Shown: positions 6,293 to 10,511 of the stretch, piece by piece
Layout of the letters: the number at the start of each line of letters is the position of its first letter
How positions within the stretch are numbered: the stretch's first letter is position 1
Assembly (NCBI GenBank): GCA_017471085.1
Contig: JAFUWW010000062.1
Coordinates: 1 to 11,098 of the forward strand
Reading direction: 5' to 3'
Source: Bacteroidales bacterium
Lineage (GTDB): Bacteria > Bacteroidota > Bacteroidia > Bacteroidales > UBA932
Length of the DNA: 11,098 bases
Program-made: the position numbers and the translations under genes
Notes under the pieces: generated by a model
The model's input: the letters and a program-made list of their open reading frames with translations, nothing else
What the model was told of the DNA's origin: nothing
Databases searched by the model: none

Positions 6293-6530
6293 ATGATATT
6301 TGCGTCTCCAAATTGGTTAGTTACAGTGGAAGAAAAAAAGGCAGGTTGGTTCTACTGAAGCCTGGACGCGGACAATATCCCGCCGGAAGGCACGCCCCTT
6401 CTCATCGTATCCAACCACCAGAATTGCCTCAACGACGCCTTCGGATACACCCGGATGGCTTTCGAGGCGGCCGTTCCTTTTCCGCCTGATGGTCAAGGTG
6501 CCGTTCTTCCGGAAATCCATGCTGGGCTAA
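6293..6530 (+). pseudogene. Remnant of a lysophospholipid (PlsC-like) acyltransferase gene
   Basis: From an ATG at 6293 one frame reads to a TGA at 6356-6358 (ending GWFY), then continues as SLDADNIPPEGTPLLIVSN and HQNCLNDAFG to about 6445. That run has the acyltransferase block I seen in Bacteroidota PlsC-like enzymes: an ENIP-type lead, a hydrophobic strand, then SNHQN with an Asp five residues after the His. After about 6463 the coherent reading moves to another frame, RPFLFRLMVKVPFFRKSMLG, and ends at TAA 6528-6530, overlapping the ClC stop codon. Complete enzymes of this type are several hundred residues long, so most of the gene is missing. The stop, the frameshift and the truncation together mark it as a decayed gene. 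The second fragment may be the original C terminus after an internal deletion; that part is inference. Confidence 0.65.
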
Positions 6531-8305
6531 TCCTGCGAGAAATCCTTCAGTTCTTCGCGGTAGGCCGAAAAAATCTTGGACTTGGAGAGAAAGCCCAGGT
6601 AGGTACGGTCTTCCCGGATCACCGGCAGGTTCCAGGCCCCGGTCTTTTCGAATTTCCGCATCACGGAATCCATGGATTCTTCCGGGAAAACGTACTCGGG
6701 AGCCGTCCGCATGTAATTGTACACATGCTTTTTCTCATACAGGCCGGTCTGGAACATGTCCTTGCGGATATCGGCCAGGGAGACGAATCCCTGGAAGCGG
6801 CGGCGTGAGTCCAGCACCGGGAAAATGTTCCGCTCCGAGTTGGACACCACCTCTACCAGCTCGCCCAGGGTGGCATCGATGCGCACCGGTGCAAAGTCCT
6901 TTTCCAGCAGCGTTTCCGTCTTCAGGAGCGTGAGCACGGCCTGGTCGGAATCGTGCGTGAGCAATTCGCCGGAAGTGGCGATGCGTTTGGTATAGATGGA
7001 GTATTTTTCGAAAATGCGCGTAACGCCGAAGGAGATGGCCGATGTCAGGATGAGGGGCACCAGCAGCTCGTATCCGCCACTGATTTCGGCAATGAGGAAG
7101 ATGGCCGTGAGGGGGGCCTGCATCACGCCCGCCATGAGGCCGGCCATGCCCACCAGGACAAAGTTGGAGACGGGGACCAGCCCTTCCGAGAAAAGATTGA
7201 GCGTGGAAGCGAGCACGAAGCCCGCCATGGCGCCTACGAAAAGGGTGGGGCCGAAAGTTCCGCCTACGCCGCCGCCGGCATTGGTGAAGGTCATGGAAAA
7301 TACCTTCAGGAGGAGCACCAGCAGGAAAAACACCGGGATGGCCCATTTCCACTGAAGGGCGATGGACAGCGGCGTCACCCCGCCGAAGTCTACGGCGCCG
7401 TTATTGAGCAGCGGCCGGAGGAAATTGTATCCCTCCCCGTGCAGGGGCGGGAAAAGAAAGATGAGCACGCCCAGCGAAAGGGCCGATATCACCCACCGGA
7501 GCCAGGGATTCCTGAGTTTCCCCAGCCGGTCTTCCATGGAGAGGGTGGTGCGGATGAAATACAGGGCACAGAAGCCGCAAAACACGCCCAGGACGGCGTA
7601 AAACGGCACATTCCGGATCGAGAAAGCAGCCAGGGTGGAAGCGAACTGCGTCTCCTGTCCCAGACAGATATAACTTACCAGCGTGGCCGATATGGAACTG
7701 AGCAGAAGGGGCAGCATGCCTGTCATGGAGATGTTGAAAAGCAGGATCTCCAAAGTGAACAGCACCCCGGCCAGAGGGGCGTTGAAGATGCCCGCCACGG
7801 CACCCGCGGCGCCGCAGCCCAGCAGCAGCGTCATGCCCCTGTACGACATGCCGCAATACCGGCCCAGGTTGGAGCCGATGGCTGCGCCCGTATACACGAT
7901 GGGCGCCTCCGCTCCCACGGAACCGCCGAAACCGATGGTAAGGGCGCTGGTCACGAGCGAAGACCACACATTGTGGCGCTTGATTTTGGATTCGTTCTTG
8001 GAAACGGCCTGCAGCACCTTGGTGACTCCATGGCCGATATTGTCCCGCACCAGATATTTGACGATAAGCGCGCTGAGCAGCATGCCCACGCCGGGAAGCA
8101 CCAGATACGGCCAGCGGGAGCCCGGGAACAGCGAGTCCAGGCCGCCCTGGATGGCATGGATGGTGATTTTGAGCAGGACGGCCGCCAGGCCGCACAGAAG
8201 ACCCGTCACGACGGAGAGCACCAGCAGGCTGGTATGCTCCGGCAACCTACGCAAAAGGGCCCTTGCGGGGCCCCAGATGTATTTGATGCCACTGTTTTGC
8301 GCCAT
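6527..8305 (-). CDS. ClC family chloride transporter or channel with two CBS domains
   Basis: From ATG 8305 this is a 592-residue inner-membrane protein moving chloride or a related anion. The ClC membrane domain spans about residues 18-440. Signatures are GHGVTKVL where ClC-ec1 has GSGIPE, GSVGAEAP with E133 at the gating-glutamate position, FNAPLAGVLFTLE, GGGVGGTFGP, and SIYTKRI carrying the likely central tyrosine. Two cytosolic CBS domains follow (about 468-522 and 535-588), which usually bind adenine nucleotides. Aligned on the FNAPLAG motif, the internal proton glutamate (E203 of ClC-ec1) is I187, so channel versus exchanger behaviour is open. The start is chosen at 8305, one base after the upstream TAA; the alternative ATG at 8317 overlaps that gene by 11 bp, and still earlier starts would overlap further with no family similarity. 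It probably belongs to the operon from rlmI. Confidence 0.93.
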   Translation of the reverse strand: MAQNSGIKYIWGPARALLRRLPEHTSLLVLSVVTGLLCGLAAVLLKITIHAIQGGLDSLFPGSRWPYLVLPGVGMLLSALIVKYLVRDNIGHGVTKVLQAVSKNESKIKRHNVWSSLVTSALTIGFGGSVGAEAPIVYTGAAIGSNLGRYCGMSYRGMTLLLGCGAAGAVAGIFNAPLAGVLFTLEILLFNISMTGMLPLLLSSISATLVSYICLGQETQFASTLAAFSIRNVPFYAVLGVFCGFCALYFIRTTLSMEDRLGKLRNPWLRWVISALSLGVLIFLFPPLHGEGYNFLRPLLNNGAVDFGGVTPLSIALQWKWAIPVFFLLVLLLKVFSMTFTNAGGGVGGTFGPTLFVGAMAGFVLASTLNLFSEGLVPVSNFVLVGMAGLMAGVMQAPLTAIFLIAEISGGYELLVPLILTSAISFGVTRIFEKYSIYTKRIATSGELLTHDSDQAVLTLLKTETLLEKDFAPVRIDATLGELVEVVSNSERNIFPVLDSRRRFQGFVSLADIRKDMFQTGLYEKKHVYNYMRTAPEYVFPEESMDSVMRKFEKTGAWNLPVIREDRTYLGFLSKSKIFSAYREELKDFSQD

Positions 8306-8306
8306 C

Positions 8307-8675
8307 TTATTCGTCATCCCCGGGCGTCGAGTACTGGGAGATGTTGTCGTCCGGGAGGGTTTCTCCTGCGGCATCCGATGCATCGGCGCTGCCTCCGGCT
8401 ACGGCCTCGTTCTCGGCGTCTTCTTCGCCTTCCAGCCAACGGGCCACATCTTCCATATCGTCTGTCTTTACATTGATCTTGACCAGGTAGATGGCTTCCA
8501 AGGTTTCCACCGTCACTGCGTAGAAGGTTGTTCCGTCCGGCTTGGGATATTTGATCAGGTCCGTAAGATAGTCACTGAACCCGCGGGGGTATTTTTCGGC
8601 GAATGCCGCTGCCAGATCCGGATGGGTTCCCATCTTCTCATAACTCACCACGTGTCTTTTCTTGATGTCAGCCAT
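8307..8675 (-). CDS. Conserved small hypothetical protein with acidic tail
   Basis: This 122-residue protein lacks a signal peptide and membrane segments, so it should be cytoplasmic. Residues 1-75 look like a compact domain (KKRHVVSYEKM, AEKYPRGFSDYLTDLIKYPKPDG, then FYAVTVETLEAIYLVKINVK). About 78-122 form an acidic, Ala/Gly/Ser-rich tail, probably disordered. From memory, similar RHVVSYEK proteins of unknown function occur in Bacteroidales; I cannot name a family or activity. It lies 12 bp after the ygiQ stop and ends one base before the ClC start, so translation of the two is probably coupled. The start at 8675 fits the clean N-terminal reading and the tight spacing. Codon use resembles its neighbours, and the operon position supports a real gene. 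Confidence 0.85.
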   Translation of the reverse strand: MADIKKRHVVSYEKMGTHPDLAAAFAEKYPRGFSDYLTDLIKYPKPDGTTFYAVTVETLEAIYLVKINVKTDDMEDVARWLEGEEDAENEAVAGGSADASDAAGETLPDDNISQYSTPGDDE

Positions 8676-8687
8676 AGTCAGGTTTTA

Positions 8688-10511
8688 TTACTTTTTCTTT
8701 CGAGGTGCAATAATAAGGCTTTGTTTTGAACTCTGCAAGCGGTTTTCCTTTTTTTTCGTAGAATTTTTAAAGAAAAACGACTTTTGCTGCTGTTTTTTCA
8801 CAGGATCATGCTCGCAGAACACGGGTTTCATATCCCGCGGGTCCAGCCCGGTATAGAACATCACGGAGGACGTGGTCATGGGAGTGGGGGTGAAATCCTG
8901 CACCTGGTCCATCCAGATTCCCTTGAGGGCCGGATGGGAGGCGAGGTGCTCCATATCCTTGAGGGTGCAGCCGGGATGGGACGATATGAAATAAGGCACC
9001 AGCCCCACATGGGTGCCGGCTTCCCGGTTCACGGTATCGAATTCTTTCCGCAGGCGCTCGAAAAGCGCGAAGGTCGGCTTGGCCATTTTTTGCAGCACAT
9101 GGTCTTCCGTATGCTCCGGGGCCACTTTCAGACGGCCGGAGGTGTGGTCCAGGACCAGGGTCTTCAGATAGGGTTTGGAACTGGGGTCCACAAACCCGTC
9201 CTTTGTCAGGAACAGGTCGTAGCGGATACCGCTGCCGATGTAACTGTGGCGGATGCCCTTGGTGGCGTCGATCCGCTTGTAGAGCTCCATCAGGCGGGTA
9301 TGGTCGCAGTCCAGGTTGGGACAGCGGGCCGGGAACAGGCAGCTGCGGCGCTTGCACTTGTCGCACAGTTCCAGGTTCTTCCCGTGCATGCCGTATATGT
9401 TGGCGGTAGGGGCGCCCACGTCGGATATGTTTCCCGCAAAGTCCGGCAGGTTGTTCAGGGCCTTCACCTCTTTGAGGATGGACGCCTCGCTCCGGGACGA
9501 GATGAACTTTCCCTGATGGGCGGCGATGGTACAGAAATTACAGCCGCCGAAGCAGCCCCGGTGCGTATTCACGCTGAATTTAATCATGTCGTAGGCCGGG
9601 ATGCGCTTGCCTTTGTAGCGCGGATGCGGCAGCTTGGTGTAAGGCAGGTCCCAGAAAGAATCCATCTCTTCGGTGGTGGCGGGAGGATAAGGCGGATTGA
9701 TCTGCACGAACCCGTCTTCCACCGGTTCGATGATGGTGTCGGGATGCATCATGTTGGCATGCGTCTCAATCCAGTGGAAATTCTCCGCGAACGCCCGCTT
9801 GTCTTTCTGACATTCCTCAAAGGAATGGAGCACCAGATGCCCGGTCGGAGCCGGGCATGACCCGCCATTCCCGGCTTGACCGGGCATCTTTCCCTTTACA
9901 TAGAAGGCCAGCTGGGGAATCTGCCGCATGCGGTGGCGGGACCAGCCTTTCTCGATGCCCCGGGTCAGTTCCAGCATCGGCCTTTCGCCCATGCCGTAGC
10001 AGAGCCAGTCGGCGCCGGAGGACACCAGGACGGAAGGCATCAGGCAGTCTTTCCAATAGTCGTAATGGGTGAGGCGGCGAAGGGAGGCCTCGATGCCGCC
10101 GATCACGACCGGGACGTCCGGGAAGAGTTCCTTCAGGATCCTGGTATAGACGGTGACGGCGTAGTCCGGACGGGCGCCGGCCTTTCCGTCGGGGGTATAG
10201 GCATCGTCGTGACGGAGGCGTTTGGAGGCGGTGTAATGGTTCACCATGGAATCCATCGCCCCGGAATTGAGGCCGAAATAGAGCCTCGGGGCTCCCAGTT
10301 TCCGGAAATCGCGCAGGTCGTCCCGCCAGTTGGGCTGCGGCACCACAGCCACGCGGTAGCCCCATTTCTGGAGCCAGCGGGCGATGACGGCCGTTCCGAA
10401 GGAGGGATGGTCCACGAAGGCGTCGCCGGTGAACAGGATTACGTCTATGTAATCCCAGCCCAGCGCCTGCACCTCCTTCACGGAAGTGGGAAACATGTAA
10501 GCCTCTGCCAT
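8688..10511 (-). CDS. ygiQ: YgiQ family radical SAM protein (UPF0313)
   Basis: This 607-residue protein has the YgiQ N terminus (LGWDYIDVILFTGDAFVDHPSFG), then a B12-binding-like segment, then a radical SAM domain with the cluster motif CFGGCNFC (C320, C324, C327). A second Cys-rich patch follows near 375-405 (LCDKCKRRSC and CPNLDC). SIGSGIRYD-like and KVAPEHTEDHVL segments typical of the family come next. Its chemistry is not established to my knowledge. Oddities: residues 208-226 are encoded by a 55-bp palindrome that looks like an insertion, and the last ~40 residues are a Lys-rich tail encoded by A/T-rich DNA ending in tandem TAA stops. The chosen ATG lies 5 bp after the upstream rlmI stop; an internal ATG at 10496 would also fit. 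It is shorter than E. coli YgiQ (about 740 residues), mainly at the C terminus. Confidence 0.93.
   Translation of the reverse strand: MAEAYMFPTSVKEVQALGWDYIDVILFTGDAFVDHPSFGTAVIARWLQKWGYRVAVVPQPNWRDDLRDFRKLGAPRLYFGLNSGAMDSMVNHYTASKRLRHDDAYTPDGKAGARPDYAVTVYTRILKELFPDVPVVIGGIEASLRRLTHYDYWKDCLMPSVLVSSGADWLCYGMGERPMLELTRGIEKGWSRHRMRQIPQLAFYVKGKMPGQAGNGGSCPAPTGHLVLHSFEECQKDKRAFAENFHWIETHANMMHPDTIIEPVEDGFVQINPPYPPATTEEMDSFWDLPYTKLPHPRYKGKRIPAYDMIKFSVNTHRGCFGGCNFCTIAAHQGKFISSRSEASILKEVKALNNLPDFAGNISDVGAPTANIYGMHGKNLELCDKCKRRSCLFPARCPNLDCDHTRLMELYKRIDATKGIRHSYIGSGIRYDLFLTKDGFVDPSSKPYLKTLVLDHTSGRLKVAPEHTEDHVLQKMAKPTFALFERLRKEFDTVNREAGTHVGLVPYFISSHPGCTLKDMEHLASHPALKGIWMDQVQDFTPTPMTTSSVMFYTGLDPRDMKPVFCEHDPVKKQQQKSFFFKNSTKKKENRLQSSKQSLIIAPRKKK
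9835..9889. repeat. REP-like palindromic element inside the ygiQ coding sequence
   Basis: AGATGCCCGGTC (9835-9846) and GACCGGGCATCT (9878-9889) are perfect 12-bp reverse complements. Nested inside is a second perfect stem, AGCCGGG (49-55 of the 9800s) with CCCGGCT (9870-9876), and a further ATG/CAT pairing near the tip. The element forms a long hairpin on either strand. It is read in frame as part of YgiQ (residues 208-226, beginning KMPGQAGNGG), and the surrounding protein is normal YgiQ on both sides. The core word, CCCGGTC next to AGCCGGG, resembles dispersed small palindromic repeats of bacterial genomes. No second copy is seen in this window. That it was inserted is inference. Confidence 0.75.

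Follow-up and report, generated by a model that had tools for sequence, protein, structure and literature searches.

How a nested palindrome comes to lie within the coding sequence of a conserved enzyme gene, and whether it belongs to a mobile family, is the question raised by the window analysed here, an 11,098-nucleotide stretch of DNA from a Bacteroidales bacterium whose best genome matches were uncultured Bacteroidales, several of them from rumen. The genus is possibly Cryptobacteroides, judging by a single named record (L011, 73% identity). In-frame palindromes in proteins were, as Ogata et al. are said to have put it in 2002, unique to Rickettsia yet recurrent there, and scattered cases are known from other organisms. 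The features of the locus are as follows:

8688..10511, minus strand: host gene, YgiQ-family radical SAM protein of 607 aa (TIGR03904, 753 bits; cut-off 462)
9831..9902, minus strand: the slot, a loop of YgiQ that varies (residues 204-227), flanked by the conserved F203 and LHSFEEC
9835..9889, no strand assigned: CGTC-type REP dimer of 55 bp, units head to head (tags inward), residues 208-226 (KMPGQAGNGGSCPAPTGHL)
9835..9862, plus strand: REP unit 1, 28 nt, AGATGCCCGGTCGGAGCCGGGCATGACC, from the consensus scan
9863..9889, minus strand: REP unit 2, 27 nt, AGATGCCCGGTCAAGCCGGGAATGGCG, from the consensus scan

RESULTS

The palindrome is a head-to-head dimer of hairpin units read in frame within YgiQ

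The 55-bp nested palindrome reported at 9835..9889 by the initial annotation was confirmed. Its outer arms (AGATGCCCGGTC/GACCGGGCATCT) were complementary at 12 of 12 positions and its inner arms (AGCCGGG/CCCGGCT) formed seven perfect pairs. It resolved into two units which abut and together exactly fill 9835-9889. Unit 1 (9835..9862) has an AGAT head, a stem (ATGCCCGG/CCGGGCAT) paired at 8 of 8 bp, a loop of 6 nt and the end ATGACC, compared to ATGACG in the consensus. Unit 2 (9863..9889) has a stem paired at 7 of 8 bp, a loop of 5 nt and the end ATGGCG, compared to the same consensus. The CGTC tags carry one change each (GGTC and CGCC), and since both are changed, the window copy is probably an old one. 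The predicted folding energy of the 55 nt was -42.3 kcal/mol. No other perfect 12-bp inverted repeat with arms at most 40 nt apart was present in the window; at least one such repeat was found in 12 of 300 dinucleotide shuffles of the window, so that the outer arms by themselves are mildly unusual for one window. The palindrome is regarded as non-random because it resolves into two copies of a hairpin consensus that is dispersed in related genomes.

The YgiQ open reading frame was open throughout, with a PF08497 match at residues 7-313. Positions 2-557 of TIGR03904, the NCBIfam YgiQ profile, aligned to residues 7-580, making the protein 18 residues longer than the profile, in agreement with the earlier claim that the palindrome adds about 18 residues (208-226) and leaves the frame intact. 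The tryptic peptide of the window protein covering the insert would be MPGQAGNGGSCPAPTGHLVLHSFEECQK. An alignment of 229 YgiQ proteins, a set that includes the 120 closest homologues listed and loci enriched in split ones, gave 183 insertion calls of 4 aa or longer, of which 182 fell in the loop; the single call outside the loop was N-terminal, in L006. No solved relative of YgiQ was found by PDB sequence search, and the loop is putatively surface-exposed.

Elsewhere in the window, a possible degenerate CGTC unit was observed at 8310-8341, at the junction of ORF 8307-8675 (minus strand) and the ClC channel gene (6527-8383, minus strand). Translated, it would supply STPGDDE at the C terminus of the former and, close to the start of the latter, an RPGMTNKM stretch. 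Its pairing is weak and it was absent from the consensus-scan output.

Related units are dispersed in related genomes

When CCCGGCTTGACCGGG was searched with up to one mismatch, 47, 35, 25, 12, 3, 1 and 1 copies were found in seven of 11 related genomes and none in the other four, with 0-5 matches per genome for reversed-pattern controls. Within one genus, 58 of 151 genomes contained the exact pattern CCGGTCAAGCCGGNNATGAC (18 fixed bases), and its reversed control gave one match among the matches listed. In relatives, the unit was mostly AGAT-nnCCGR-TCnnG-YCGGnn-ATGACG (CGTC-AT...AT-CT on the other strand), a consensus derived from copies in the genomes G004 and G007. A strict scan of relatives' copies, demanding an AT start and at least 7 stem pairs, gave 22 and 26 units compared to 0-2 for each scrambled foot, the foot being part of the search. 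The loop was 5 nt in 36 of these 48 units and 6 nt in nine, and the sequence past the stem was usually CT followed by a variable base, not CCA. A loose scan of 400 kb from G007 and as much from G004 found 70 units, of which 55 were kept by a consensus filter written after the units had been viewed; six scrambled-foot controls gave 4-15 loose matches each and none after the filter. Units were paired tag-inward in 15 cases and tag-outward in one. Moreover, 31 of the 55 units had an opposite-strand unit within 100 bp, the partners being drawn from the 70 loose-scan units. The earlier expectation of related copies elsewhere was thus borne out to the extent that related genomes can show it. As part of the best explanation taken as a whole, the window palindrome is very probably a member of a dispersed, non-autonomous family of CGTC-tagged REPs across this Bacteroidales lineage.

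The survey of CGTC-tagged REPs by Di Nocera et al. (2013, PMC3733652) reported them from five phyla, Bacteroidetes among them. As that survey describes them, they have an 8-9 bp stem starting with AT, a loop of 4-5 nt and a CGTC tag with TGTC and CCTC variants, a short unpaired tail fits CCA in most but not all of them, and they occur as head-to-head dimers, heterodimers and intragenic units, without a linked transposase. The AT-starting 8-bp stem, CGTC tag, head-to-head dimers and heterodimers, and intragenic units are common to the repeats found here. The tag is represented by the ATGACG end in relatives' copies, from which the window copy differs by one change per tag; the window units have 8/8 and 7/8 stem pairs; dimers predominate, at the 15 to 1 given above; many dispersed copies per genome were counted in relatives; and, for the Y1 class, no repeat-flanked transposase was seen at 12 loci. 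The window loops measure 6 and 5 nt, and the tail starts with CT instead of the usual CCA. The features tested place the palindrome of the window in the CGTC REP superfamily, the agreement being less clear for loop length and tail.

Most units lie inside genes

The 55 filtered units in 800 kb of G007 and G004 were distributed as 40 inside predicted genes (from a custom caller), seven at gene edges and eight in intergenic sequence. With a coding share of 0.892 in the sampled sequence, unit density was 0.056 per kb in coding compared to 0.093 per kb in non-coding sequence, indicating that gene avoidance is only mild. In contrast to these two genomes, where most units were intragenic, REPs in the 2013 survey were mostly intergenic (PMC3733652).

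A Pfam family above cut-off was found in 16 of the 21 host ORFs with inside units: shikimate kinase, MurE, methionyl-tRNA synthetase, HydF (two inserts), dihydrofolate reductase, a SufE/FeS-assembly fusion, Fe superoxide dismutase, a UvrA-like protein, WecB, M16 peptidase, an NtrC-type regulator with inserts in two linkers, an endonuclease/phosphatase-fold protein, an epimerase, a glycosyltransferase, an MFS transporter and a DegT aminotransferase. The remaining five ORFs gave no family match above cut-off, and one of them (L162:8080-10995) resembles an antisense ORF. Two phase classes prevailed among the 40 inside units, 18 reading approximately E(I/M)(P/A)(G/D)Q(A/V)G(N/H)D and 17 approximately V(I/M)PGLTGNL. 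The preferred peptide classes were found in 25 of 26 insertion events compared to 17.9 expected from open frames (simulated p 0.0002); because the classes were set after the data had been viewed, this preference, although consistent with selection on the peptide, is a lead only.

The YgiQ loop holds different palindromes in different relatives

A YgiQ match was found in 120 of the 151 genus genomes. In 25 of them the listed match was split within a single contig at this loop; both halves lay in the same open frame in 24 of the 25; the exception was G134 (locus L198), where the YgiQ frame is broken at a second palindromic element described below. The 91 genus loops that were compared consist of all 25 split cases except L198 and the 67 best-scoring unsplit ones, and do not sample the 120 YgiQ-matching genomes at random. 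A larger set of 113 loops was obtained from 114 by leaving out the frame-broken L198.

Loop length was 20-25 residues in 61 of the 91 genus loops and 40-109 residues in the other 30, which are referred to as inserted. The DNA of all 30 inserted loops was different. A perfect inverted repeat of at least 10 bp was present in 23 of the 30 inserted loops, compared to 3.7% of shuffled ones and none of the 61 short loops, and inverted repeats of at least 8 bp were found in two of the 61. At the DNA level, a CGTC unit was recognised in one of 113 loops, that of the window, and recurrence of the CGTC family at the loop therefore rests on peptides. A CGTC-type peptide was found in the loop of eight of the 120 closest homologues listed, in forms like the window dimer, like single units, and in tandem in P0099. 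Most relatives lack residues 208-226, whose presence in close and distant YgiQ proteins would have counted against the initial annotation. The signature of the second element, drawn up after the sequences had been viewed, was found in 22 of the 30 inserted genus loops and in none of the 61 others. Over all 35 inserted loops, 24 carried the second-element signature, three a third type, one the CGTC signature, and seven none of these. These findings show that the YgiQ loop is a slot shared by different palindromes in different relatives.

In the second element, copy-specific arms enclose a conserved core

The second element consists of a conserved core between long arms. The core is usually GTCGC-TTC-GCGACCCCTCCC, a variable hairpin, GGGCCCCTCCCTC and GGCCGAGGGTGGCC, and its exact pattern was present in 44 of the 151 genus genomes. 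With a few mismatches allowed, the arms were at least 24 nt long in 20 of 25 matches and 20-22 nt in two more. In its terminal inverted repeats the element agrees with MITEs, which measure approximately 70-300 bp. Arm pairing was analysed in 21 of the 25 matches, with L284 (Ns), L285 (cut off), L287 (10-nt arm) and L280 (a duplicate of L278) dropped. Over the inner 20 arm positions, 19.3 of 20 were paired within a copy compared to 9.6 of 20 between copies, and in all 21 copies, from four genomes, the own arm was the best or joint best partner. Several arm positions showed all four Watson-Crick pair types. Like the CGTC units, the element was found in genes: for nine ORFs hand-chosen from 16 candidates, a Pfam family above cut-off was found in eight, including RibF in two genomes.

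The L195 and L199 loci have near-identical YgiQ arms with the core inverted, and the same inversion is suggested by peptide for a THUMP-like protein in L144 and L271. The YgiQ loop of L204 was grouped with L195 and L199, having copy-specific complementary arms and a core that seems inverted between related species. It was also observed that 14 of the 30 arm mismatches in the 21 copies were A.C on the GGCCGAGGGTGGCCA strand, equivalent to G.U on the opposite strand, and only three were G.T on the GGCCGAGGGTGGCCA-bearing strand. This excess of A.C hints that the strand opposite to GGCCGAGGGTGGCCA is the one that folds.

A joint reading of these data, which we put forward tentatively and consider rather doubtful, is that conserved proteins of this genus hold designated slots repeatedly visited by unrelated palindromic families, and that the second family is defined by structure. 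Its arm middles would then vary freely and yet stay complementary, through arm-to-arm correction or through recognition of the folded strand. With a core that is invertible within the same arms between related species, a gene might on this reading switch between two insert peptides.

Shared slots occur in other conserved enzymes

Similar behaviour was seen in other conserved enzymes. Fe superoxide dismutase (Fe-SOD) was matched in 29 of 61 genomes and WecB in 22 of 61, and the units in their loops were recognised by eye. Clear extra sequence was present in four of 20 Fe-SOD loops, consisting of CGTC units in two of the genomes and of TGTC-type units in the other two. In WecB, extra sequence was present in two of 12 loops, one with a CGTC dimer and one with a TGTC-type unit. 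Sharing of a slot by different sequences thus extends beyond YgiQ. In the Fe-SOD loops of L310 and L311, the TGTC-type repeats read CHSERSEES and VILSEAKNL, and in L312 a different palindrome-like stretch reads VPELVEG.

The Y1 transposase loci examined have no CGTC unit nearby

Y1 transposase genes were found in seven of the 11 genomes examined (20 matches). No CGTC unit was found within approximately 1.5 kb of the 12 loci examined out of these 20. Moreover, G001 and G011 carry Y1_Tnp genes despite having 0 and 1 CGTC matches, respectively. The suggestion that a RAYT-type (Y1) gene might be connected with the palindrome was therefore not supported, and a RAYT was rejected as mobiliser. At four Y1 loci (L112, L117, L118 and L119), inverted repeats of at least 11 nt, unrelated to CGTC, were observed on both sides of the transposase, flanks being judged where the called ORF was the transposase itself. 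A search of six sources (the window, L001, L003 and L143-L145) against Rfam at the gathering threshold gave three tRNAs and an SRP RNA, and matched neither element.

DISCUSSION

We consider it highly likely that the 55-bp palindrome is a CGTC REP dimer that was copied in frame into a tolerant loop of ygiQ. Dispersed REP dimers would insert widely across the genome, by copying that is probably transposition-like, and the palindrome or its ancestor would have entered the ygiQ loop in a frame-preserving phase. The inserted DNA would then be read as a Gly/Pro-rich segment of YgiQ, which is presumably translated in vivo and is likely to be near-neutral for the protein. The surviving copies would be those that lie in tolerant loops and leave the frame intact, the filter being frame and loop tolerance. 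Inserts would survive in the YgiQ loop because they are tolerated there, YgiQ otherwise taking almost no insertions. The same loop in relatives would have taken other palindromic elements and, judging by peptide, single CGTC units.

The most serious alternative is that the YgiQ, SOD and WecB loops are targeted insertion sites, chosen by a sequence or structure preference such as a hairpin scar, so that target choice and not tolerance would explain the slot. Many different palindromes at one loop would fit such targeting, as would the short loops of the window's clade with scar-like partial inverted repeats (such as L163, L166 and L006), and REPs are described as known targets of IS insertion (PMC3733652). 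However, the genome-wide copies lie in many unrelated genes and linkers, as tolerance predicts, and an inverted repeat of 10 bp was found in none of the 61 short loops, with at least 8 bp in two. Targeting is for these reasons unlikely, though it deserves more weight than the other alternatives, and loop tolerance appears to be the better explanation of the slot. It is improbable that the insert is adaptive and loop diversity selected. The different DNA of all 30 inserted genus loops and the post hoc reading-frame preference would agree with selection, but the hosts include housekeeping enzymes of unrelated function and 61 of 91 genus loops have no insert.

Bypassing elements are hairpins within coding regions, and the strong predicted hairpin of the 55 nt (-42.3 kcal/mol) would suit a mobile insert that is spliced from the RNA or bypassed by the ribosome, leaving a protein without the segment. 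A bypassed insert needs neither frame nor stop-free sequence, however, so that the open frame across the loop in 24 of 25 split genomes, with G134 as the frame-broken exception, makes this very improbable. Least probable of all, and hardly credible, is a native origin of the segment as protein sequence, with a palindrome in its DNA that arose by chance or serves RNA regulation. The 12 of 300 shuffles with a 12-bp inverted repeat leave some room for it, but the hairpin consensus recurs across genomes and genes and the segment is missing from most relatives. A chance palindrome was rejected on the dispersed copies.

Copying of a CGTC REP dimer into a tolerant loop has parallels in several known systems. 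RPE-4 and RPE-6 of Rickettsia are, according to the 2013 survey, themselves CGTC repeats (PMC3733652), and the comparison with Rickettsia palindromic elements made in the initial annotation is therefore apt. As with RPE-4 and RPE-6, short palindromes are found in frame within conserved protein genes, here, at the level of DNA, in the window and in the 16 host ORFs, out of 21, that match a family. Unlike them, the present repeats belong to another phylum, and the likeness is drawn through the published CGTC assignment. An RPE-bearing guanylate kinase is reported to be produced as an active enzyme whose substrate affinity is altered (PMC2229807). The enterobacterial and neisserial MITEs fused in frame that Delihas described (PMC2229807, PMC2759123) are likewise small mobile inverted repeats, but of other sequence families and in other hosts. 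GTAG REPs, REPINs and RAYTs (PMC3116915, PMC2817692) share the short hairpin repeats in inverted pairs; unlike the GTAG REP/RAYT system (REPtron), the tag here is CGTC-type, GTAG is absent and no unit lay beside the 12 Y1 loci. Coding palindromes of Nematomorpha mitochondria (PMC6649704) are also perfect inverted repeats within translated genes, but they are eukaryotic mitochondrial sequences in which both arms encode conserved regions, and the abstract describes no dispersed family.

What is unusual here is the intragenic majority in the sampled genomes together with one protein loop shared by several palindromic families. A smaller precedent for a shared site is recB of two Xanthomonas, the one case of different REPs at about one site given in the survey (PMC3733652). 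Among the titles listed from the open-licence literature, none apart from PMC3733652 dealt with palindromic repeats inside Bacteroidales genes, which is weak evidence of absence. With REP copies mostly intragenic in two sampled gut Bacteroidales genomes, and many of their hosts being housekeeping enzymes, these genomes offer a dense natural experiment in how selfish repeats become protein sequence and in which loops tolerate insertion. They also bear on what moves CGTC repeats, a question that the 2013 survey did not settle (PMC3733652).

Growth of such segments after insertion is suggested by two ORFs (L125:5504-7030, encoding MurE, and L137:13214-16324), in which single CGTC units are followed by short tandem copies of the unit end, with the tandem repeats reading QARDEE four times and ARNEAKD-like.
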